From contig SUSY01000015.1 of assembly GCA_015063185.1 (NCBI GenBank), positions 1-34,527 of the forward strand: a DNA stretch of 34,527 bases, read 5' to 3'. Position numbers and translations under genes: made by a program. Position 1 is the stretch's first letter, and each line of letters starts with the position of its first letter. The DNA comes from Thermoplasmata archaeon. GTDB taxonomy: Archaea > Thermoplasmatota > Thermoplasmata > Methanomassiliicoccales > Methanomethylophilaceae. Below are positions 13,925 through 34,527 of the stretch, in pieces. Under the pieces are notes generated by a model. The model was not told the DNA's origin, ran no database searches, and was given only the letters and a program-made list of their open reading frames with translations.

Positions 13925-14821
13925 ATGAGCGTATCCTCAGCCAATGACAGAAGGATTGCATCACAACTCGCTAAGGGTTGTCCAGAATCCGGCCACATAG
14001 AGATGAAATCCGCATTCTTCCCCAATCTTGTGAAAACGGTATTGCTCTTTGCCCTCGGAATAGTCCTTACCCTGTTCATATGGCAATGCATGGCATGGTA
14101 TTGTAACGATATCCGCGGACTTGCGATGGGATTCCCCACACCCGCCGAATCCATCGCCTATGTGTTCGATCACCTCGACGTGGACATATACGGAACCGGC
14201 AAGAACATCCTGGAACACCTATGTGCCAGTCTTAAAAGATTGGTGATCGCGTTCCTGCTTGCTTCCATCGTAGGTGTAATTATCGGATCAATCCTCGGGT
14301 TTTACTCCAAGATATATTCAATAGGAATTGTACCAGTGACTGTGTTCCAATCCATCCCAGGTTTAGCCTGGGTGCCCATCGCACTCCTTCTGTTCGGTCT
14401 CGGGGACGATGCATCGATCTTCATCATCTTCGCCGTCTCCTGTATGGTGATTACCACCAATGTAGCTGGAGGAATCAGGATGGTACCTCAGACCATCATA
14501 CGTGCGGCAGGAATGATGGGTGCTACCCCATCCATAATGTTCATCAAGGTGCTGATTCCCTATGCACTCGTATCGATAATCAGTGGCCTGAGGATTGGCC
14601 TTGGCAGTGCCTGGAGAGTCCTCATCGCAGCCGAAATGCTCATTGGAACAGGCATAGGTCTGGGATCCGCCATGGAATTCCTCCGTGACAATCTCGACTT
14701 CGTAGGGGCTTTCGGATGCATCGTAGTCATCTGTGCCATGGGTCTGTTCATCGACAAGATCATCTTCTCTTCCATAGAGAAGTATGCCCGTCATAAACTC
14801 GGAATGGAGGAGGGATATTGA
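13925..14821 (+). CDS. ABC transporter permease (SsuC/TauC type)
   Basis: A 298-residue membrane permease of the binding-protein-dependent family used for nitrate, sulfonate, taurine, thiamine-precursor and similar anions. It has about six membrane segments (for example LVKTVLLFALGIVLTLFIW and VIAFLLASIVGVIIGSILGFY). The ATPase-contacting EAA-type loop reads AAGMMGATPSIMFIKVLIPYA, and SGLRIGLGSAWRVLIAAEML follows. The first 30 residues are hydrophilic; an internal ATG at codon 27 is possible, but the TATA box spacing favours 13925. It is the first gene of a complete three-gene importer, coupled to the ATPase gene by TGATG. The substrate cannot be told from the sequence. Confidence 0.93.
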   Translation: MSVSSANDRRIASQLAKGCPESGHIEMKSAFFPNLVKTVLLFALGIVLTLFIWQCMAWYCNDIRGLAMGFPTPAESIAYVFDHLDVDIYGTGKNILEHLCASLKRLVIAFLLASIVGVIIGSILGFYSKIYSIGIVPVTVFQSIPGLAWVPIALLLFGLGDDASIFIIFAVSCMVITTNVAGGIRMVPQTIIRAAGMMGATPSIMFIKVLIPYALVSIISGLRIGLGSAWRVLIAAEMLIGTGIGLGSAMEFLRDNLDFVGAFGCIVVICAMGLFIDKIIFSSIEKYARHKLGMEEGY

Positions 14822-15588
14822 TGAGCCAGATCAGATTGTCCGAAGTGTCCAAGGCATACTACACGACCAGGAGGATGGATGATGCCAGAGTAGTTCTGGA
14901 CAGAGTGAACCTAAACATCGAGGAAGGGGAGTTCATAACCATCATCGGACCATCAGGCTGCGGTAAAACAACGATACTTAACATGATCGCAGGATTCGAG
15001 GGGCCAACCCTCGGAAAGGTATTGTTCAAGGACAATGAGATCGAAGGTCCCTCTCCGGAAAGAGGAGTGGTGTTCCAGGAGTTCAGTCTTCTCCCCTGGA
15101 TGTCCGTTCGTTCCAATATAGAGCTGGCACTTGAATGTAAGAAGGTCCCCGAGAAGGACAGGAAGGAAATCGCGTTGAAAGCTCTGAAGGCTGTAGGATT
15201 GGAGAACTTCGCAGACTACAGACCGAATCTCCTGTCTGGTGGAATGAAACAGAGGGTCGCGATTGCAAGACTTCTCGCGATGGACTCGGAGGTCTTTCTG
15301 ATGGATGAACCGTTCTCCGCATTGGATGAACAGACGCGTACCAAACTCGACAAGGATATCGTCAAGATATGGAAAGAGAGGAAGAAGACAGTCGTCTTCG
15401 TTACCCATAGCATTGATGAAGCGATACAACTCTCCACCAGGATCGTGCTCCTATCGAGCTCTCCCGGAAAGGTGATCAAAGAATGGAGACTCGATGAGAA
15501 CCTGTACCGTGACCCGATGTCCTATGATATGATCAAACTAAAGAAGGAGATACTGGCACTGATGCCCACATGCTCCTGCTCCAACTGA
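14821..15588 (+). CDS. ABC transporter ATP-binding protein (SsuB/TauB type)
   Basis: A 255-residue ATPase that powers the importer. Motifs: Walker A GPSGCGKTT, Q-loop FQEFSLLPW, signature LSGGMKQR, Walker B EVFLMDEPFSALDEQTR and the switch histidine in FVTHSIDEA. The ATG at 14821 overlaps the permease TGA by one base (TGATG); a TTG one codon earlier is a less likely start. The protein ends in MPTCSCSN, an unusual Cys-x-Cys tail for this family. The binding-protein gene starts 11 bases after the stop. Confidence 0.95.
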   Translation: MSQIRLSEVSKAYYTTRRMDDARVVLDRVNLNIEEGEFITIIGPSGCGKTTILNMIAGFEGPTLGKVLFKDNEIEGPSPERGVVFQEFSLLPWMSVRSNIELALECKKVPEKDRKEIALKALKAVGLENFADYRPNLLSGGMKQRVAIARLLAMDSEVFLMDEPFSALDEQTRTKLDKDIVKIWKERKKTVVFVTHSIDEAIQLSTRIVLLSSSPGKVIKEWRLDENLYRDPMSYDMIKLKKEILALMPTCSCSN

Positions 15589-15599
15589 TAGGTGAAAAA

Positions 15600-16664
15600 A
15601 TGGATACGAGGAAGATTATTGCAATATTGGCTGTGGCGCTCATCGCCTTCGCTGGTGTGGGAGCATATTACCTCCTACAGGACGATGATGATGCTGATCT
15701 CAAGGTATCTTATCTCAAGAAGAGTGCCTATGAGACTCACATAATCGCGGATCAGAAGGGCATATTCTCGAACAATGGTGTCAATGTTGAATCTGTACCC
15801 GTAAGTGGCAGTGGTTCCGATTCCGTCAACATGTTGATGACTGGCGTCGTTGACATCGCAGCAACTGGAGAGGGACCTGTCGCTTCGGCCATCAAACAAT
15901 ATGGGGACGATATCGTTGTACTCTGCGGTACAAACAGGTACACAGGCGGACAGGTGTGGGTCGCATCCCCCGAAATGACCGGTGACAGGGCCCTCGTAAA
16001 ATTCGAAGGAAACAACGAAGCTAGTGTCAGAGCGTCCTTCGAAAATGCTGCAAATGCCCTCGATGGAACAATCCTTGTTGGAGTGCAAAGAGGTTCCACC
16101 ACAGAATCCGAACTGAAGTCATGGCTCAAAGCCATGGAGATCTCGTTCAACGACTTCGGAGAGACCGCCAATAAGACCGTGACTCTGAAGGATATCAAGG
16201 CCAATCAGCTCGTCTCCACCATGGATGCTGGAGAAATCCATATCATGGCCGCCAGCCAACCGTATCCTGACAAAGCAATCGCATCCATCGCCGACAGTTA
16301 TGTTGTCGGATCCAACGAGGACATCGGCTCCTACGGACTTTCCGTATACATCACCAAGAAGGACATCTATGAAGAGAAGAAGGACGACATCAAGAAATTC
16401 CTCTCCGCATTGGACGATGCGACCGAATACATGAACGACCCCGATAACCTCGAGGATTGCACGAGCATATGTGCTGAGGTCTGCGGTACCGATGTGGAAA
16501 CCTTCGAATCCGCCTGGAATATCTCCAACTTCCAGATTGCATGGACTGACGAGATGGCGGAAACATTGCACAAAACATGTGAGAAGAAGAAAGTCACCGC
16601 CACATTGGACTTCTGTAAGGAGATCTGTCCCCAGGACCTCAAAGAGTATATGGAAGACTTCTGA
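15600..16664 (+). CDS. ABC transporter substrate-binding protein (SsuA/NMT1-like), cysteine-rich C-terminus
   Basis: This 354-residue periplasm-facing binding protein has an N-terminal hydrophobic anchor (IIAILAVALIAFAGVGAYYLL) and no lipobox cysteine. The NMT1/SsuA-like fold is indicated by YLKKSAYETHIIADQKGIF, GVVDIAATGEGPVASAI and GVQRGSTTESELKSWL. The ATG at 15600 follows an AGGTGA site; a longer frame from 15570 lies inside the ATPase gene and is unlikely. The C-terminal 70 residues carry six cysteines (C287, C291, C295, C327, C339, C343), two of the groups with Cys-x3-Cys spacing, which is not usual for this family and might bind a metal or form disulfides (inference). The ligand is unknown. 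Confidence 0.9.
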   Translation: MDTRKIIAILAVALIAFAGVGAYYLLQDDDDADLKVSYLKKSAYETHIIADQKGIFSNNGVNVESVPVSGSGSDSVNMLMTGVVDIAATGEGPVASAIKQYGDDIVVLCGTNRYTGGQVWVASPEMTGDRALVKFEGNNEASVRASFENAANALDGTILVGVQRGSTTESELKSWLKAMEISFNDFGETANKTVTLKDIKANQLVSTMDAGEIHIMAASQPYPDKAIASIADSYVVGSNEDIGSYGLSVYITKKDIYEEKKDDIKKFLSALDDATEYMNDPDNLEDCTSICAEVCGTDVETFESAWNISNFQIAWTDEMAETLHKTCEKKKVTATLDFCKEICPQDLKEYMEDF

Positions 16665-16737: not shown

Positions 16738-19353
16738 TCAGAGCTCAACGAGAACTAGGATGTTTCCGACCTGGATGGTCTCGACAGCCTTTCCGTCAAG
16801 CATGAGGCGCTTCTCGGTCTCGAAGTACTCCGCACCGACAGAGACCTTGTTTCCATCGATCTCGACCTCGATCGCACCTGCCTGGAGCATCTTTGCCGCA
16901 TCTGCTACATCCATCGCCGCGACAGCCGCGACGATCGCCTTTGCTTCAGCCTTGAATGCAGGTCCAAGGACCTTGTGCAGGGGCTTGATGGCGACGATCT
17001 CCTCGGTGAGATCGGCCTCGGGTGCGATGACTACTTCCTTGGCCTTGGTGGTCTCGGAGATATCTGCCTTAGAGGACTCCAAGAGCTTTGCCTCTGCACC
17101 GACGAACTCGATCATGGATAGCTCGGCGTTGAGTGCTATCTTCCTCTCGGACTTCCATGCACGGATCTCTGCGAGGACCTCGGAAAGTGCATTACCCTCG
17201 ACCTCCGCATCCTCATCGATGAACATGGGCTCAGGCCATGCAGTGAGGTGGATGGACTTGTTTCCGTCGATCGCCTGGAAGTGCTCCTGGTAGACATCCT
17301 CGGTGATGTGGGGCTGGAAGATGGCGAGCATCTTGATGCATCCGAGGAAGACGTTGTAAAGGGTGTACCTGACAGCGTCGTCGGACCTTGCCTTCACCAT
17401 CTCGACGTAGTTGTCCGCGAACTCGTGCCAGATGAATCCCTCGACCTCCTTCATCGCCTTGTCGAACTGGTAGACATCCAAGTACTCGGTGACAGCCTTG
17501 ACGACCTTGGAGAACTTACTGATGATCCACTTGTCCGCGGTCCTGAGGGTGTCACAGGTCTTGGGGACATCCTTGATGAATCTGCTGACGAACTGTCCGA
17601 TGTTGAAGACCTTGATGGAGAGCTTCTTTCCACGGATGACATCCTTCTCCCTGAATGCGTGATCGATTCCGAGTGAACAGGTGGCTGCGTAGTACCTGAG
17701 TGCGTCCGCACCGTAGTTCTCAAGGATTGGGATGGGGTCGATGACGTTTCCGATCGAGGAGTGCATTGGGGTTCCGTCGGGTGCCATGATGAATCCGTGT
17801 ATCATCACATCGTCCCAAGGCCTGCACTGTTCGATCTGCTCGGACCTGAGGATGGAATAGAATGCCCAGGTCCTGATGATGTCGTGAGACTGTGGCCTCA
17901 TGGACATGGGGAACATCTTCTTGTGAAGTTCGGGATCCCTCTCCCAGAAGGTGTTGTACAGCGCGGATCCGGAGGAGTCCATCCAAGTATCGAAGACATC
18001 GGTACAGCCGATGAGTTCTCCGCCACACTCGGGACACTTCTCGACCGGAGGCTTGTCCTCGGTCGGATCACAATAACACATCTCCTCGGTTGCACAGACC
18101 GCGTGACCGCACTTCTCGCACTCCCAAACGGGAACGGGGGTTGCGAAGATACGCTGCCTGCTGAGGACCCAATCCCATGCGAGGGAATTGGTCCAATCCT
18201 GGAGTCTGATCTTCATGAACTCGGGATACCATTTAATCTCATCCGCCCTCTTGAGGACCTGCTCCTTGAGGGAAGTGGTCTTGAGGAACCACTGGGGGAC
18301 CTGAAGGTACTCGATGGGGGTGTGACATCTCCAACAGATGGAGACGTTCTGAGGGTTGTCCTCCTGCTTGACAAGGATGCCCTGGTCCTTGAGGTCCTGG
18401 ATGGCTGCCTCGCGTGCTTCCTTTACGGGCATGCCTGCATACTTGCCTGCGAGCTCGGTCATCTTACCGGTCTCGTCGATTCCCTTCTCCATCTCGAAGT
18501 GGTACTTCATCGCCCACTCGAGATCGTCCTTGTCTCCGATGGTACAGATCATGACGTTTCCGGTTCCGTACTCCATCTGGACCTTGGGATCGGAGATGAC
18601 CTTGACCAGCCTGCCGGTGAGAGGAACGACGAGTTCCTTTCCGATCAGATGCTGCTTCTCCTTGTCGTCGGGGTGGACCGCGACGCACTTACAGGTGCAG
18701 AGAAGCTCGGGTCTGGTGGTTGCGACCATGACGTACTCGTCGGGGGAACCACCGGAAATCTGGAATTTGATGTAATTGAGCTTGTTGACGTTGTCCTCGT
18801 ACTCGACCTCGGCATCCGCGAGAGCGGTCATACACCTGGGGCACCAGTTGACGGGGAAATTGGCCTTGTACACGAGACCCTGTTTGAACAGCTTTGCAAA
18901 GGAGATCTGAGTGACCCTTCTGTAGTACGGAGCATCGGTCTGGTAGTAGATGCTAGGATCCATACTCTCTCCGAGGATCTCGAAGTGGTGGGTCATCTCA
19001 TCGATGAATCCATTGGCATATTCGGAACAGAGCTTCCTGTACTCTGCTCTGGGAAGGTCCAACTTTGTGATGTTGTGCTTCTTCTCAACCTTGACCTCGA
19101 TGGGAGTTCCGTTGACATCGAAACAGAGGGGGAAGAACACGTTGAATCCCTTCATCCTCTTGTAACGGGCTGCGAAGTCGATCAAGGAATATCCGGTTGC
19201 ATGTCCGAGATGGAGGGGGCCGGAGGTGTACCTTGGGGGATTGTCAATGCTATAGATTGGCTTGTCAGACTTGGGGTCGAAGCGGTAGACCGCATCCTCC
19301 CTCCACATCTCCTGCCAACGTTTTTCGATGGAAGCACAGTCGTATTGCGACAT
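16738..19353 (-). CDS. valS: Valyl-tRNA synthetase
   Basis: An 871-residue class Ia synthetase. The HIGH signature reads GPLHLGHATG within NPPRYTSGPLHLGHATG, and the CP1 editing domain has the ValRS-type ATTRPELL rather than the isoleucyl form. Zinc-binding cysteine pairs are visible (CPRC, CWRC, CEKC, CPEC). The KMSKS loop reads GTPMHSSIGN (encoded at 17746-17775, about residues 527-536), so the two lysines are missing. The tRNA-binding helical domain and a C-terminal extension follow. The ATG at 19353 is preferred over 19401: it is preceded by GGGGGTGG, and the conserved sequence starts there. A TATA-like box lies 25 bases upstream. Confidence 0.93.
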   Translation of the reverse strand: MSQYDCASIEKRWQEMWREDAVYRFDPKSDKPIYSIDNPPRYTSGPLHLGHATGYSLIDFAARYKRMKGFNVFFPLCFDVNGTPIEVKVEKKHNITKLDLPRAEYRKLCSEYANGFIDEMTHHFEILGESMDPSIYYQTDAPYYRRVTQISFAKLFKQGLVYKANFPVNWCPRCMTALADAEVEYEDNVNKLNYIKFQISGGSPDEYVMVATTRPELLCTCKCVAVHPDDKEKQHLIGKELVVPLTGRLVKVISDPKVQMEYGTGNVMICTIGDKDDLEWAMKYHFEMEKGIDETGKMTELAGKYAGMPVKEAREAAIQDLKDQGILVKQEDNPQNVSICWRCHTPIEYLQVPQWFLKTTSLKEQVLKRADEIKWYPEFMKIRLQDWTNSLAWDWVLSRQRIFATPVPVWECEKCGHAVCATEEMCYCDPTEDKPPVEKCPECGGELIGCTDVFDTWMDSSGSALYNTFWERDPELHKKMFPMSMRPQSHDIIRTWAFYSILRSEQIEQCRPWDDVMIHGFIMAPDGTPMHSSIGNVIDPIPILENYGADALRYYAATCSLGIDHAFREKDVIRGKKLSIKVFNIGQFVSRFIKDVPKTCDTLRTADKWIISKFSKVVKAVTEYLDVYQFDKAMKEVEGFIWHEFADNYVEMVKARSDDAVRYTLYNVFLGCIKMLAIFQPHITEDVYQEHFQAIDGNKSIHLTAWPEPMFIDEDAEVEGNALSEVLAEIRAWKSERKIALNAELSMIEFVGAEAKLLESSKADISETTKAKEVVIAPEADLTEEIVAIKPLHKVLGPAFKAEAKAIVAAVAAMDVADAAKMLQAGAIEVEIDGNKVSVGAEYFETEKRLMLDGKAVETIQVGNILVLVEL

Positions 19354-19373
19354 ACCACCCCCTATTAAGGGAA

Positions 19374-19383
19374 GATAAATAAG
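19374..19383 (-). promoter_or_regulatory. TATA-like box of valS
   Basis: CTTATTTATC on the minus strand, centre 25 bases upstream of the valS ATG; together with the GGGGGTGG just before the ATG it fixes the start at 19353. Confidence 0.5.
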
Positions 19384-19401
19384 GGTTTGCCGAGCCAGCA
19401 T

Positions 19402-19788: not shown

Positions 19789-19790
19789 TC
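19775..19790 (-). terminator. Hairpin overlapping the stop codon of the CBS-HPF gene
   Basis: GATCCC (19775-19780) / GGGATC (19785-19790) with a four-base loop. The stem includes part of the TGA stop, and a T-rich stretch with CATTTTTATA follows on the minus strand. Confidence 0.5.
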
Positions 19791-20958
19791 ACTTCTTTCT
19801 CTTGCGGTATGTGTCTTTCGCGTCCTTACGCTCCATGACGGCCGCAGTGAGTTTTCTCATCAGATCGTTGGAGACCTTCACGATGTCCCAGCCTACTTCT
19901 TTCGCCGTGAACACCTCACTGTCCAATGCCAATCTTCCACTGACACTGTACTTCTGTCTGTCACCGCCCTCGTTGTACTTTCCATAGTGGAAGGTCAAAG
20001 AGGATGGGTTTCCAACCTTGGAGATCTTGGACACTTCACCCTGAATGAACTCATAGATCTGATCGGAATACTCCTTATCGCTATCAGACAGTCCACTGAG
20101 CTGGACGAAGAGCATTTCCCTCTGTCTGCATGCTGCAACGATTTCAAGGATATCGTACTGCGTTATCACACCGACAGCCGATCCCGATTCAAGTACAGGG
20201 AGTGTGGAGATACCGGTCTTACACATGATCTCCGCCGCTTCCTCGATATCACTGTCCCAGGTGATCGTTTCTGCGTGATTGGTACATACGGACGATACGG
20301 AGATCTTGGTGTCGCCGAGATCCGCAAGGCTACGATATCCATCATTGGTATCGATTACCTCCTTCATTCCGATGACTCCTTTGACCTTTCCATCAGCCTC
20401 AACGACCGGGACTGTACGGATATCTAGGGACCTCATGAGTTCAATGGCTTTATCCAAAGTATCGTCGTCCTTGACGTACTCCACAGGATTGGTCATGACC
20501 TCCCATACCCTGATCTCGTTGATGGTCTTCAGTGAAGAGACGACCTCTACGATCGAGCCCCTCGATACGACTCCAACTATCTTCTTCTTGGAGTTACCAC
20601 TTACAACAGCGATCTGCCTGCTGTTGTTGGACACCATCTTCTCGGAGACATCCATGAGGTTGTCTCCCTCTGCGACGGTAGGTGCACCTGACATCAGGTT
20701 CCTTACCTTCATATCTCCAGTGATGCCCTTCTTCCTCAGGAGTATTCCATAACCCATCATTCCAACATAATTGCCGTTCTCAATGACGGGAACGTCCTGA
20801 TAGCCGGACTTCTTCATCGCGGCCAGAGCATCTTTGACACGATCCTCGGGGGAAAGTGTCGGGTATTCGGTGTCCATCACGTCGGATACCTTGAAGCCTT
20901 CGATCTGCGAACGCAGGATCTCGAGCTTCTTGTGATCTTGCAGATCTACAATTCCCAC
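19789..20958 (-). CDS. Four-CBS-domain protein with HPF/RaiA-like C-terminal tail
   Basis: A 389-residue protein starting at GTG (20958), supported by GAGGTG seven bases upstream. Residues about 20-280 contain four CBS motifs, each with the usual pattern, such as VSDVMDTEYPTLSPEDRVKDALAAM and VWEVMTNPVEYVKDDDTLDKAIELM. CBS pairs typically bind AMP, ATP or related adenylates and sense energy state. Residues about 290-389 look like a ribosome hibernation factor (HPF/RaiA) fold: MLFVQLSGL, LTFHYGKYNEGG, KYSVSGRLAL, GWDIVKVSNDLMRKL and a basic tail. This suggests an energy-sensing ribosome inactivator. The similarity of the tail was judged by eye and is less sure than the CBS domains. It lies between valS and glyS. 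Confidence 0.82.
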   Translation of the reverse strand: MGIVDLQDHKKLEILRSQIEGFKVSDVMDTEYPTLSPEDRVKDALAAMKKSGYQDVPVIENGNYVGMMGYGILLRKKGITGDMKVRNLMSGAPTVAEGDNLMDVSEKMVSNNSRQIAVVSGNSKKKIVGVVSRGSIVEVVSSLKTINEIRVWEVMTNPVEYVKDDDTLDKAIELMRSLDIRTVPVVEADGKVKGVIGMKEVIDTNDGYRSLADLGDTKISVSSVCTNHAETITWDSDIEEAAEIMCKTGISTLPVLESGSAVGVITQYDILEIVAACRQREMLFVQLSGLSDSDKEYSDQIYEFIQGEVSKISKVGNPSSLTFHYGKYNEGGDRQKYSVSGRLALDSEVFTAKEVGWDIVKVSNDLMRKLTAAVMERKDAKDTYRKRKK

Positions 20959-21057: not shown

Positions 21058-21119
21058 TTTAAATATGGATCGCCGAGAGCGCCGGATTCGGACCCTCGGC
21101 GATATAGAATATATTTAAA
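21058..21119 (-). terminator. Long interrupted hairpin downstream of glyS
   Basis: Outer arms TTTAAATAT (21058-21066) / ATATTTAAA (21111-21119) and inner perfect 9-bp arms ATCGCCGAG (21069-21077) / CTCGGCGAT (21095-21103). The 17-base loop can form a further CCG/CGG stem. The outer arm overlaps the glyS TAA. It may end glyS transcription, protect the mRNA end, or be a separate small RNA. Confidence 0.5.
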
Positions 21120-22827
21120 TCTTTGCGAAATCCGCCCCAGACATTAGTTTACGGACGATTTCTCCGACCTTCTCGGCAGGCACACGCTTCTGTTCCTTTG
21201 AATCACGGTCCCTGATTGTAACGGTTCCCCTGAGGTCTCCCTCGAGGGATTCGTAATCCACGGTGACACAGTAGGGCGTACCGACCTCGTCCATACGGGC
21301 ATACCTCTTTCCGATGGTTCCTGATCCATCATAGACGGATGCGATACCTCCGGATTGAAGTCTCTCATAGAGTTCCATCGCATAGGTATCGAGACCATCC
21401 TTCTCCATAAGTGGGAACACTCCGACCTTGATTGGTGCAACCTCGGGTGCGAGATGGAGAACGGTGTAGTCCTCCTTCTCATCGTAGTCGTATGCCTGCT
21501 CGAGGATGGAATAGAAGATTCTGTCGAGACCGTGTGAGGGTTCGATGACATGGGGGATGACCCTCTTACCGGAGACCTTCTCTGTGACACGGACGACCTC
21601 GTAGAACTCATCTGTGAGCTCCACTGCCTCCCCATCGACATCCACCGTGATCTTTCCAGACCTAGCCATCTCGGGATCGGCAGCCTCGATGAGTGCTGCG
21701 ATGTCCTTGGCCTTGGCCTTGAACTTGGGTCCGAGGAGCTTATGCTTCGCCTTAACTTTGTCTACCTCCATCTCGACAGGCTCGTCGAACTTCTTGAAAT
21801 GGGACATGTCAGTTCCTGAGAACTGGGCATGCCTGGAGAGATCCCAACAACCGCGATCTGCGATACCGGTGATCTCCATCCATCCATAGGAAAGGAGGAC
21901 CTCGGCATCCCAGCAGTCCGCTGCGTAGTGGGCCATCTCATCCTCGAGATGCTGTCTGAACCTGAGCCTTGCAGAATCGATTCCGAGCCTGAGAAGAAGC
22001 TGCTTGGTGGTGTTAACAAAGTATGCGAGGACCTTGTTGGCGATGATACCCTTGTTGACGGCCTCATCGATGGTCATCTCCACAGCCTGCTCGGTGGTGT
22101 TAGGTACGAGGGTGATCTTCTCGTCTTTGATGGCATCATACCTGACCCATCCTTTGTCCTCGGGATCGACGAAGAGTTCGACCTCCATCTGGTTGAACTC
22201 CCTCATCCTGATCATTCCCTGCCTGGGAGCGATCTCGTTCCTGTAGCTCCTACCGGTCTGGATGACTCCGAGTGGAAGCTTCTCCCTGTTGTACCTGTAG
22301 AGGTTGTTGTAGTTGACGAAGATACCCTGTGCGGTCTCGGGCCTGAGGTATCCGACACGGCTGGATCCGGGACCGATGTTGGTCTTGAACATGAGATTGA
22401 ACTCATCGGTGGGTCCAAGGTCACCTCCACACTCGGGACACTTGACACCATGCTTAACGAATGCCTCATCCAACTCCTTGAGGGAGAGGACGTCCGGGTT
22501 CTCGTAGAACTCCTTCACCAGATGATCGGCTCTGAATGGGGCCTGACATTTCGTACAGTAGGTGATTTTATCAGCGAACTCATCCACATGACCGGATGCC
22601 TTGAAGACCTCTCTGGGATTTACGGTCTCGGAATCTATCTCGACGAAACCCTCCCTTCCCTTGTAGATGGACCTCCAGACCTCGACTATGTTGTTCTTGA
22701 GTGCACAACCGAGAGGTCCGTAATCGTACATTCCTGCGACTCCGCCATATACCTCGAAGGAGGGCCAAATGAAACCCCTGCGTTTGCAAAGGCCCATAAG
22801 GTCTGCAGGGTCCACGTCCTTACTCAT
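21115..22827 (-). CDS. glyS: Glycyl-tRNA synthetase, archaeal alpha2 type
   Basis: A 570-residue class II synthetase. Conserved blocks: motif 1 region WPSFEVYGGVAGMYDYGPLG, RPETAQGIFVNYNNLYRYNREKLP, motif 2 QTGRSYRNEIAPRQGMIRMREFNQMEVE, motif 3 VIEPSHGLDRIFYSILE, and the C-terminal anticodon-binding domain (LAPEVAPIKVGVFPL...). CTKC and CPECGG fit a zinc-binding insertion. The ATG at 22827 (MSKDVDPADLM) is chosen; a longer frame adds 13 unlikely residues inside the upstream gene. It overlaps the stop of the upstream CBS gene by 8 bases, so translation is coupled in a uspA-CBS-glyS unit. Length is normal for the archaeal and eukaryotic form. Confidence 0.96.
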   Translation of the reverse strand: MSKDVDPADLMGLCKRRGFIWPSFEVYGGVAGMYDYGPLGCALKNNIVEVWRSIYKGREGFVEIDSETVNPREVFKASGHVDEFADKITYCTKCQAPFRADHLVKEFYENPDVLSLKELDEAFVKHGVKCPECGGDLGPTDEFNLMFKTNIGPGSSRVGYLRPETAQGIFVNYNNLYRYNREKLPLGVIQTGRSYRNEIAPRQGMIRMREFNQMEVELFVDPEDKGWVRYDAIKDEKITLVPNTTEQAVEMTIDEAVNKGIIANKVLAYFVNTTKQLLLRLGIDSARLRFRQHLEDEMAHYAADCWDAEVLLSYGWMEITGIADRGCWDLSRHAQFSGTDMSHFKKFDEPVEMEVDKVKAKHKLLGPKFKAKAKDIAALIEAADPEMARSGKITVDVDGEAVELTDEFYEVVRVTEKVSGKRVIPHVIEPSHGLDRIFYSILEQAYDYDEKEDYTVLHLAPEVAPIKVGVFPLMEKDGLDTYAMELYERLQSGGIASVYDGSGTIGKRYARMDEVGTPYCVTVDYESLEGDLRGTVTIRDRDSKEQKRVPAEKVGEIVRKLMSGADFAKI

Positions 22828-23671
22828 TGTTCTCACCGAGGAGTGCGAGGAGAACATCGACGTCATAGATCATTCCTATGAGCTCCTCATTGTCCCCATG
22901 TACGGGAATCTGACCGAAGTCGTTCTCGTACATGACCCTTGCAACATCGCTGAGCTTGGTCTTCTTGAACACCTTGGTGGGATCCTTGACCATGAACTCG
23001 CTGACACTCCTGGTGGACGCATCAGTGTTGTTCTCCAAATGGAAGAGAGGGAGGACATTTCTGTATCCTGCGAGGGAGATGCATGTGTCATCGAGACCCA
23101 TCTCCTTCATGGCGTTGACATCCTTCGTCTGATCCACGAATAAGTCACGGTCGGTGAGTATTCCAACCATCTTACCATTCTCATCGAGAACTGGCATGGC
23201 GGAAACATCGCTGATCCTCATGGATTTGACGACGTATGAAAGGGGATCCTCCTTGTAACAGGTTGCACACTTGACCCTGATTGCATCTTCGGCGGTGAGG
23301 GAGATGTTCTTCATCTTCTTAATCTCCTTGATCAAATCGGTAGGGGTGATGATTCCGATGAGTTTCTTGTTCTCAACGACAGGCAACCTGTGGATCCTCT
23401 TCTCGAAGAAGATCTTGGCAGCATCGGAGATGGATGCATCAGGACCAATGACGAGAGGATTCTTCTTCATGAGAATGGAGAGCTGCGTCTCCTTCATATT
23501 CTTGAAAACGTCCCTTCTGGAGATGATTCCCATGAGCTGTCCGTCGGAAGAACGGACGACCGGGAGTCCAGTCAACTTGTTCCTTACCATTATGTTGATC
23601 GCGTCGTTCCTGTTACCTGGAACCTGCACGACGATCGGCATGTTTGTCATTACGTCTGCTACAGTTTTCAT
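22820..23671 (-). CDS. Four-CBS-domain protein
   Basis: A 283-residue protein made almost entirely of four CBS motifs, for example VADVMTNMPIVVQVPGNRNDAINIMVRNKLTGLPVV, LMKKNPLVIGPDASISDAAKIFFEKRIHRLPVV and SEFMVKDPTKVFKKTKLSDVARVMYENDFGQIPV. It probably binds adenine nucleotides or SAM-like ligands. The ATG at 23671 overlaps the uspA stop as ATGA, and the stop lies inside the start of glyS. The upstream longer frame is rejected because the first CBS motif begins right after this ATG. Being sandwiched between uspA and glyS suggests a regulatory job in stress or energy response, but no effector domain is attached. Confidence 0.9.
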   Translation of the reverse strand: MKTVADVMTNMPIVVQVPGNRNDAINIMVRNKLTGLPVVRSSDGQLMGIISRRDVFKNMKETQLSILMKKNPLVIGPDASISDAAKIFFEKRIHRLPVVENKKLIGIITPTDLIKEIKKMKNISLTAEDAIRVKCATCYKEDPLSYVVKSMRISDVSAMPVLDENGKMVGILTDRDLFVDQTKDVNAMKEMGLDDTCISLAGYRNVLPLFHLENNTDASTRSVSEFMVKDPTKVFKKTKLSDVARVMYENDFGQIPVHGDNEELIGMIYDVDVLLALLGENNE

Positions 23672-24111
23672 TTGGTTTCCGCCTCTGATGACTTTACAAC
23701 CATTACGGGACATTTAGCGAATCTTACGACCTTCTCCGCTACACTACCCATCATGAATTTTGCGAACCCTGTCCTTCCAAGAGTTCCCATTACAATCAAT
23801 TCGAAATCCTTCGAAGCCTCCACGATGGCCTTCACAGGTGATCCGCTCACCACAATCTCACTGACATCGATACCGTTCTCCTCTCCCAGAGACTTGACGA
23901 ATGCGGTTGCGTTGTGACCTTCCTTGTCCATCATATCGTAGATCGCATTGACGGACGAGTCGATGGGAACGTTGCCGAACACCGTCTGATCGATGACATA
24001 CAATGCTGTGATTGACCCGCCAGTGACCTTCGCAAGCTCTACAGCCTGTCTTATGGCTGCCTTCGTGAACTCACTTCCGTCAGTGGGAACGAGAATCTTC
24101 GTGAATGCCAT
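23668..24111 (-). CDS. Universal stress protein UspA family
   Basis: A 147-residue Usp protein. The N-terminal KILVPTDGSEFTKAAIRQAVELA and the nucleotide-binding GTLGRTGFAKFMMGSVAEKVVRFAKCPVMVV (G-x2-G-x9-G-S) show an ATP-binding type. A GAGGTATTCAA site precedes the ATG. It is the first gene of the coupled uspA-CBS-glyS run and starts 32 bases after the amidohydrolase stop, so it may be read from that promoter. It would bind ATP and signal stress; partners are unknown. Confidence 0.94.
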   Translation of the reverse strand: MAFTKILVPTDGSEFTKAAIRQAVELAKVTGGSITALYVIDQTVFGNVPIDSSVNAIYDMMDKEGHNATAFVKSLGEENGIDVSEIVVSGSPVKAIVEASKDFELIVMGTLGRTGFAKFMMGSVAEKVVRFAKCPVMVVKSSEAETK

Positions 24112-32568: not shown

Positions 32569-33852
32569 ATGGATTTGATGGTTACATTATCAATCGTTGC
32601 TATGGCCATACTGGTCATCCTTTCCGGAATGTTCTCCGCTACGGAGACCTCGTTCACAAGTGCAAGCAAGATTAAACTCATGAAGATTGAGGAAGAAGGC
32701 AATAAGAAGGCCACAAAAACGATTCATCTTCTTGAGAACTACGACAAACTCCTTACCACAATCCTGGTCGGTAACAACCTCGTTAACATCATGTCATCCT
32801 CATTATGTACCTTCATCTTCACAGAGATGTTCGGTGCCATGGGAGTGATGATATCTACAGTGTTCATGCTGGTCGTCATCCTTGCGGTCGGAGAGATCAC
32901 CCCCAAATCATTGGCAAAGAGCGCCCCCGAGAAGTTCGCACTGTTCTTCACACCGTTCATCTCCATCGTGGCGAAGATATTCTCACCCATCACATGGGTG
33001 TTCCAGAAGTTCTCCTCCATCGTGAACAAGTGTGCCAATACCGGTGAGGATACTCCAACCCTTACGGAAGAGGAACTTATGATCATGGTCGACGAGATTG
33101 AAGAGGAAGGGGAGCTTGAAGAGGCAGAGAGTGACCTCATCAAATCCGCAATCCGCTTCGATGATAAGTGTGTCAGCGAAATCCTCACACCACGCGTCGA
33201 CATTGTCGGTATCGAGAAGAGGGCGACAATGGATGAGGTCAAGAAGCTCTTCATCCGTAGCGGATTCTCCAGACTTCCGGTCTACGAGGACACTGTGGAT
33301 AAGATCATCGGTGTCGTGTACTCCAAGGACTTCTATGCCAAGTACTTCTCGTCCAGCCAGGACAACGGTATCGCCAGCATCATCAGACGCGTCAGATACA
33401 TACCGGAATCCACCTCCGTCGCAACAGCACTCTCGGAGATCCAGAAATCCACTGTACAGATGCTCGTGGTCATCGATGACTATGGAGGCACCGTCGGTAT
33501 CGTATCATTGGAGGATGTCCTCGAAGAACTCGTCGGTGAGATATGGGATGAGAGCGACGAAATCGAGTATGACATCATCAGGGATGGTGACGGAAGTTTC
33601 GTCGCAAAAGGTGATGCCAATATCAACAACCTGATGGAGGAGATCGAGATGAGGTTCGACCTGGGTGAGTACGACGGATCCACCGTCGCAGGTTTCATCC
33701 AGTACAATCTTCAGAGGTCACCGATCACTGGAGACAAGATCTCCGTAGAGAACGTCACCATGACCGTCACCTCAATCAGAAACAGGCGTATCAAATACGT
33801 CAGAATCACTGTGGAGAGTCCTGAGGAAACAGATTCCGAAGATAATCTCTAA
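32569..33852 (+). CDS. CNNM/CorC-HlyC family transporter (DUF21, CBS pair, CorC_HlyC domain)
   Basis: A 427-residue membrane protein related to CorC, YfjD and CNNM Mg2+/Co2+ transport proteins. Residues 1-150 are the DUF21/CNNM membrane domain with about three to four helices (MVTLSIVAMAILVILSGMFSATETSFTSAS, LTTILVGNNLVNIMSSSLCTFIF, GEITPKSLAKSAPEKFA). A CBS pair at about 205-320 follows (VSEILTPRVDIVGIEKRATMDEVKKLFIRSGFSRLPVYED and IPESTSVATALSEIQKSTVQMLVVIDDYGGTVGIVSLEDVLEELVGEI). The C-terminal CorC_HlyC domain ends the protein. Magnesium efflux or homeostasis is the usual role; ion specificity is inferred. The last 47 bases overlap the convergent COG1325 gene. Confidence 0.93.
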   Translation: MDLMVTLSIVAMAILVILSGMFSATETSFTSASKIKLMKIEEEGNKKATKTIHLLENYDKLLTTILVGNNLVNIMSSSLCTFIFTEMFGAMGVMISTVFMLVVILAVGEITPKSLAKSAPEKFALFFTPFISIVAKIFSPITWVFQKFSSIVNKCANTGEDTPTLTEEELMIMVDEIEEEGELEEAESDLIKSAIRFDDKCVSEILTPRVDIVGIEKRATMDEVKKLFIRSGFSRLPVYEDTVDKIIGVVYSKDFYAKYFSSSQDNGIASIIRRVRYIPESTSVATALSEIQKSTVQMLVVIDDYGGTVGIVSLEDVLEELVGEIWDESDEIEYDIIRDGDGSFVAKGDANINNLMEEIEMRFDLGEYDGSTVAGFIQYNLQRSPITGDKISVENVTMTVTSIRNRRIKYVRITVESPEETDSEDNL

Positions 33853-34346: not shown

Positions 34347-34421
34347 GGGCCCGTAGCTTAGCTTGGTTGGAGCGCCCGGCTGATAACCGGGAGGTCTCGA
34401 GTTCAAATCTCGTCGGGCCCA
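34347..34421 (+). tRNA. tRNA-Ile (anticodon GAT)
   Basis: A complete 75-base cloverleaf. Acceptor GGGCCCG (34347-34353) pairs perfectly with CGGGCCC (34414-34420), with discriminator A at 34421. The D arm follows (TAGCTTAGCTTGGTTGGAGC). The anticodon stem is CCCGG/CCGGG (34375-34379, 34387-34391) around loop CTGATAA with anticodon GAT at 34382-34384. The T loop is TTCAAAT. It reads the AUC and AUU isoleucine codons. No CCA is encoded and there is no intron. The last stretch, 34422-34527, holds no recognisable feature beyond T-rich sequence that could end the transcript. Confidence 0.97.
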
Positions 34422-34527
34422 CTACCTCTTATTATAATCAAAAATTGACCAGTGAGCTCTCTTTTGCTCATATTGTCATTCCGGTTTAGAAAGCTACCGC
34501 TGATGTATCTTTCCCGAATGTAGTTTT

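Follow-up and report, generated by a model that had tools for sequence, protein, structure and literature searches.

A probable HibA-family ribosome hibernation factor encoded between glycyl- and valyl-tRNA synthetase genes in a Methanomethylophilaceae archaeon

We analyzed a 34,527-nucleotide stretch of DNA (hereafter the window) from a Thermoplasmata archaeon of the family Methanomethylophilaceae, order Methanomassiliicoccales (GenBank assembly GCA_015063185.1, contig SUSY01000015.1, positions 1 to 34,527), focusing on a minus-strand open reading frame (ORF) at 19789..20958. The ORF starts with GTG at 20958, stops at 19789-19791, comprises 389 codons, and encodes a 389-amino acid protein; we call the gene hibA after its match to HibA, chain H of PDB entry 9SR9, over residues 21-383. 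An N-terminal CBS module of four CBS domains (residues 1-278; 20125..20958, minus strand) was delimited by Pfam, a CBS search of the genome itself, and fold matches, and a C-terminal HPF/RaiA-like domain (residues 279-389; 19792..20124, minus strand) by a profile of related tails, Pfam scans of those tails, and a structural model. Two aminoacyl-tRNA synthetase genes flank hibA on the same strand, with glycyl-tRNA synthetase (GlyRS; 21115..22866; TIGR00389, 688 bits against a cut-off of 243) directly upstream and valyl-tRNA synthetase (ValRS; 16738..19401; TIGR00422, 763 bits against a cut-off of 612) downstream.

Four CBS stretches were identified in the protein by Pfam (PF00571, E 6e-39), and the CBS search of the genome likewise placed four in this one gene. 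Pfam matches to Glutaredoxin, DUF7698, bCoV_SUD_M, and WHIM1 in the HibA region were below cut-off and lay inside the CBS module, and the NCBIfam matches (25 of 31 listed) were CBS cross-matches, every one under its cut-off; all of these were rejected. The CBS module of the predicted full-length model matched AMP-binding CBS quartets and the ribosome-associated Dri and Sri entries, with Z 22.9-27.3 for 3ddj, a SriA/SriB entry, MJ1225, and Dri.

Searched alone against Pfam, the window tail (approximately residues 279-389, 111 amino acids) matched no family, and the Pfam gathering cut-off of PF02482 (HPF/RaiA) was not reached by the window protein, its genome, or its tail. When 53 tails from the order were scanned singly, with matches accepted up to E 10, 24 matched PF02482 (best E 4.7e-5), and the runner-up family was matched by 4 tails. 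A profile built from these 53 tails was run against all PDB chain sequences and retrieved 12 with E values no higher than 10, of which the top five were of HPF/RaiA type (E 0.0045, 0.023, 0.067, 0.27, and 0.28; only the first passes E 0.01), the rest being two further HPF/RaiA chains (0.8 and 0.9), HibA of Pyrococcus abyssi (0.69), and four unrelated sequences. With the tail model as query, ranks 1-24 in Foldseek were all HPF, RaiA, RafH, or protein Y chains, as were ranks 1-33 in VIA-align, which ran from Z 13.1 (root-mean-square deviation 2.5 over 102 residues) down to Z 8.4 before an unrelated chain at rank 34 (Z 8.1); the tail part of the full-length model likewise gave HPF matches at Z up to 13.0. 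Some of these chains are titled by their ribosome only (5mmj_y, 5x8r_y, 5myj_A, and those from Thermus thermophilus hibernating ribosomes), and we take them to be HPF or protein Y. An alignment of 103 sequences (65 members from the order including the window protein, 37 from outside it, and P. abyssi HibA) showed tail residues Q286, G289, Y337, and W357 conserved in at least 88 of the 102 members and in P. abyssi HibA. Two archaeal HPF insertions are a trait of HibA, and the window tail aligns with the P. abyssi protein with single-residue gaps only, which fits; the insertion sites themselves are given in the supplement of the HibA paper. The first-pass annotation, made from the letters of this DNA, had placed at this locus four CBS motifs fused to an HPF-like tail. 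The ORF and its four CBS domains were recovered there, and the tail assignment is borne out by the PDB search with the order profile, where HPF/RaiA chains rank first at weak values from 0.0045, by the PF02482 matches of related tails, and by a predicted structure that is HPF/RaiA-like and not unrelated to HPF.

The best match of the window protein among PDB sequences was 9sr9_H (E 1e-22), followed by a second-best match at 1e-13; 9SR9 is described as HibA-ATP in the data section of the HibA paper (PMC13324472). A profile of 23 homologues matched this HibA at E 3.4e-47 over positions 22-392, and in the reverse search P. abyssi HibA found the window gene first in the genome of the window (3.0e-21), with the neighboring CBS gene second (2.1e-10). 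The two proteins are thus collinear over nearly their full length and are reciprocal best matches, between PDB sequences in the forward direction and the window's genome in return. A tree built from 52 CBS modules placed 30 from HibA (14 from each of two groups, the window protein, and P. abyssi) on one side of a branch with 100/100 support and 22 CBS proteins encoded next to GlyRS on the other, where the latter group together with no HibA module among them. HibA is known as sister to the group CM-5; the tree, which covered HibA modules and GlyRS neighbors, parts the window module from its HhpR-like GlyRS neighbors only. No HibA was among the matches listed in fold searches with the full model, whose library ends on 8 April 2026, presumably before the HibA entries appeared.

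HibA was described in April 2026 (Nat Commun 2026, PMC13324472), where, in the text available, ribosome binding, translation inhibition, and 70S preservation are shown for the Thermococcales protein, and HibA is reported from every major archaeal lineage, with 47% of archaeal genomes carrying it; its occurrence in the lineage of the window is therefore expected. We conclude that the window gene very probably encodes the HibA ribosome hibernation factor of this archaeon. Homology gives good support to the hibernation reading, through profile, fold, and near full-length similarity to P. abyssi HibA, and this reading agrees with the function proposed at first pass. The described relative that had been named there was Dri, and the end-to-end match to 9SR9 replaces it with HibA as the closest characterized protein. 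The HibA family being already known, the window protein is ordinary in kind, and its identity is well supported.

Several observations weigh against this conclusion. Across the aligned part, the window protein shares a low 26% identity with P. abyssi HibA, and the tail profile ranks bacterial HPFs above P. abyssi HibA, every match being weak. When the CBS module was searched alone, MJ1225 scored slightly above HibA (149.7 against 138.9 bits), which means that the CBS part alone cannot decide the family. The full-length model is of moderate quality only (mean predicted local distance difference test score, pLDDT, 74.9). Further, the segment between CBS3 and CBS4 that aligns with the peptidyl transferase center (PTC) loop region of P. 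abyssi HibA (residues 200-222; 20293..20361, minus strand) has 23 residues, the shortest of the 65 order members (the next shortest has 24 and the median is 30; P. abyssi has 31), and because of this shortening the PTC-bound pose of the window protein may differ or be weaker. For the lineage of the window, the hibernation function is inferred from homology.

The T/S-x-x-D motif of CBS domains binds the ribose of adenylates. The window protein has a single complete copy among its four CBS domains, in CBS4 (G263-x-x-T266-x-x-D269; 20152..20172, minus strand), where T or S at 266 is kept in 64 and D at 269 in all 65 order members. In CBS3, G replaces T in 65/65 order members, and P. abyssi has both the CBS3 and the CBS4 motifs. 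Both motif residues of CBS2 are present in 20/65 order members, the window protein not among them. Because the CBS4 motif is kept, the CBS3 threonine replaced, and the CBS2 pair absent, the window protein likely has one adenylate site, in CBS4. Outside the order, both motif residues are found in CBS2 of 30/37 members and in CBS4 of 28/37, and the CBS2 pattern shows, at the level of motif residues, that predicted adenylate sites vary between lineages.

Strong HibA matches (E below 1e-59) were identified in 57 of 61 order genomes by eye count, comprising the window's own genome and 60 relatives; among these 57, the G017 match is a fragment located at the end of a contig. Three genomes (G006, G036, and G054) gave no HibA match in the order search, and the match in a fourth (G052) was weak (3.7e-6); these four genomes are many-contig drafts, with G006 96% and G054 98% complete. 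The five other searched genomes of the genus carry HibA at 91% and 69-72% identity, which together with the 57 strong matches puts the gene far beyond chance. Three named relatives were found, in genomes from sheep colon (91%) and roe deer rumen (46%), both Candidatus Methanomethylophilaceae (a family assigned by NCBI to Methanomassiliicoccales, class Thermoplasmata), and in one labeled Thermoplasmata (70%). At the class level, the HibA profile matched 144 of 150 genomes at E 1e-20 or better, a few matches being partial. The phylum search reached the same threshold in 141 of 243 genomes and was not taken as a measure of HibA occurrence, since a large share of its weaker matches cover the CBS part only. 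An architecture hitherto studied in hyperthermophiles is thus present in nearly all searched Methanomassiliicoccales and in other Thermoplasmata genomes, including gut methanogens, which hibernation could help survive between host meals or outside the host. Tandem HibA pairs were observed in 6 of the 8 searched genomes of family f6 (L062, L064, L066, L068, L069, and L080), where one paralogue may be specialized. In one genome of the window's family (G024; L057 and L036) HibA is present in three copies, and two of these form a tandem pair outside the synthetase cluster.

Gene order around hibA was read at 57 loci (56 stretches from 55 order genomes, plus L010), counted in addition to the window. 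The order CBS-quartet gene, GlyRS, HibA, ValRS on one strand was found in 37 of these, in 6 more with two tandem HibA genes, and in 1 with GlyRS split into two ORFs; the order was partial in 12 loci, some at contig ends, and 1 locus held a separate HibA pair. When each ORF is taken from the earliest start codon available, 36/50 cases show an overlap of the CBS-quartet gene with GlyRS (median spacing -4 bases; -8 and -4 commonest), and the median gaps are 138 bases between GlyRS and HibA (54 cases) and 54.5 bases between HibA and ValRS (50 cases). Among 37 HibA loci outside the order, some of them on short contigs, GlyRS lay within approximately 5 kb in one, and neither ValRS nor a CBS-quartet gene was found within that distance in any. 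That one locus (L095) belongs to family f13, in which GlyRS adjoins HibA in all 5 genomes covered by both searches; no CBS-quartet match was obtained in f13 genomes G067, G078, G088, G096, and G104. Because GlyRS is near so few HibA loci outside the order and ValRS near none, the link between HibA and synthetases is, in the loci read, a trait of Methanomassiliicoccales and f13 rather than a general feature of HibA. Neither "synthetase" nor "operon" appears in the main text of PMC13324472, which described HibA, and no conserved coupling of HibA to GlyRS and ValRS within a single archaeal order was found in the literature searched. This conserved cluster is the less expected part of the finding and our best new lead, hinting at co-regulation of tRNA charging and ribosome storage in the order. 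The idea in the first-pass annotation that a place between two synthetase genes would link energy state to translation shut-down held for the position, with GlyRS upstream, ValRS downstream, and the arrangement conserved in the order, but position does not show a regulatory link.

The first gene of the cluster (22820..23713, minus strand) encodes a stand-alone four-CBS protein, recognized from the ORF list, Pfam, NCBIfam, a PDB match, and comparison of loci, and its end overlaps the start of the GlyRS ORF by 47 bases, or by 8 if GlyRS starts at the second-next Met (22827). It resembles HhpR (126 bits, under the curated cut-off of 520), and its best PDB match is PH1780; the NCBIfam matches (25 of 29 listed) were rejected as CBS cross-matches, all under their cut-offs. 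HhpR is placed in the group CM-3, for which a hibernation role is doubted in the available text of PMC13324472. In a class-level sample counted by eye, the CBS quartet was matched in 37 of 51 genomes. Of the 36 that also matched GlyRS, 35 had the quartet gene immediately ahead of it (the exception being G084), suggesting that the CBS-quartet protein and GlyRS are functional partners. Long open frames (e.g., 873 amino acids in G069) raised the possibility of a fusion of the two, which was rejected; of 12 regions fetched and translated, 11 held both genes, and in all 11 these were separate adjoining ORFs. The literature searched yielded no paper on GlyRS with CBS domains, a result without bearing on papers beyond that collection, and no report of the wider pairing of CBS quartet and GlyRS across the class. 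Were hibernation and tRNA charging one adenylate-responsive unit, the CBS quartet would act on the synthetase and HibA on the ribosome, and the two CBS proteins of the cluster would read adenylates that shift with aminoacylation and energy state; we consider this rather improbable.

The sequence comparisons and the predicted fold indicate a single module of four CBS domains linked to an HPF/RaiA domain, an arrangement collinear with P. abyssi HibA. By analogy with the published work on HibA, the HPF domain would under stress sit on the 30S subunit, in its mRNA channel and decoding region, and the CBS module would fill the vacant tRNA sites on the 50S subunit, so that both domains would keep idle 70S ribosomes in an inactive, protected state until growth starts again. 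This hibernation may be tuned by adenylate binding, probably at the kept CBS4 motif, a tuning that the available text of PMC13324472 does not show for HibA. A stronger version, compatible with a HibA identity and adding to it, is that an adenylate on the CBS module directly controls ribosome engagement as an AMP-gated switch. The conservation of the CBS4 motif across the order is in its favor, as is the adenylate binding reported for the CBS module of P. abyssi HibA (dissociation constant for AMP 12 uM; PMC13324472, available text). Yet in that same text AMP left the classes of ribosome-bound HibA unchanged in vitro, ATP added a weakly populated state only, and the authors report no clear effect of AMP and ATP on ribosome binding; CBS3, moreover, has G in the place of threonine throughout the order. 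We hold such a switch to be possible but doubtful, and of the energy-sensing hibernation factor envisaged at first pass, the hibernation part stands by homology whereas the energy-sensing link does not, adenylate binding having been seen in PMC13324472 without a clear effect on ribosome binding.

Two readings would replace a HibA function altogether. The tail could have been recruited off the ribosome, serving a CBS sensor that binds another RNA or controls the neighboring synthetases, as the conserved placement between GlyRS and ValRS and several double-stranded RNA-binding domains among VIA-align tail ranks 36-50 (Z 7.0-7.9) might suggest; however, HPF-family chains fill all the ranks down to 33, the four conserved tail residues are shared with P. 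abyssi HibA, and outside the order the gene mostly lies elsewhere in the loci read, which makes this reading very unlikely. To a Dri-type factor, blocking both subunits with CBS modules only, we give next to no chance: Dri also acts on archaeal ribosomes (PMC13324472, available text) and the window CBS module superposes on it (9e7f_3, Z 25.0; 9e6q_3, Z 22.9), but the window protein has one CBS module and an HPF domain, and the HPF tail already contradicts such a factor.

Other features of the window include an ABC transporter cassette of the nitrate/sulfonate/taurine type (permease, ATPase, and SsuA-like binding protein; 13925-16664, plus strand), whose best matches were under curated cut-offs, and a relative of CBS-containing membrane proteins (32569-33852, plus strand) with GldE, PaeA, and CorC-like matches under cut-off. 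No RNA gene other than a tRNA-Ile (GAT) at 34347-34422 (plus strand) was found in the window.

Among known systems, the CBS quartets MJ1225 and SSO3205 (the latter, among others, solved with AMP) are near structures of the CBS module (Z 25.9 and 27.3), with chains of 280 and 296 residues that match this module only. The same holds for SriA to SriD, known to us from PDB titles as CBS proteins on Methanosarcina acetivorans 70S ribosomes (9ZNF, 9ZNG, and 9ZNI; 9znf_4, Z 26.3), whose chains have 270-339 residues. Dri of Pyrobaculum calidifontis (9E6Q and 9E7F) shares the fold of the CBS module and a role on archaeal ribosomes but is built of two fused CBS modules (dual-lobed in the available text of PMC13324472), whereas the window protein combines a single four-CBS module with a C-terminal HPF domain, and membership in the Dri type was rejected. 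Bacterial and chloroplast HPF, RaiA, and protein Y (PF02482) share the fold of the tail, with VIA-align Z up to 13.1, but lack a matched CBS module, have 9-16% identity over VIA-align ranks 1-33, and belong to a Pfam model that the window tail misses. HibA of P. abyssi (Q9UYR4; 9SR9) differs from the window protein in sequence (26% identity), in its longer segment at the PTC-loop position, and in the T-x-x-D that the window CBS3 lacks, and it shares with it the four tandem CBS domains, the C-terminal HPF/RaiA domain, and a nearly equal length (392 and 389 amino acids, respectively) in collinear arrangement.
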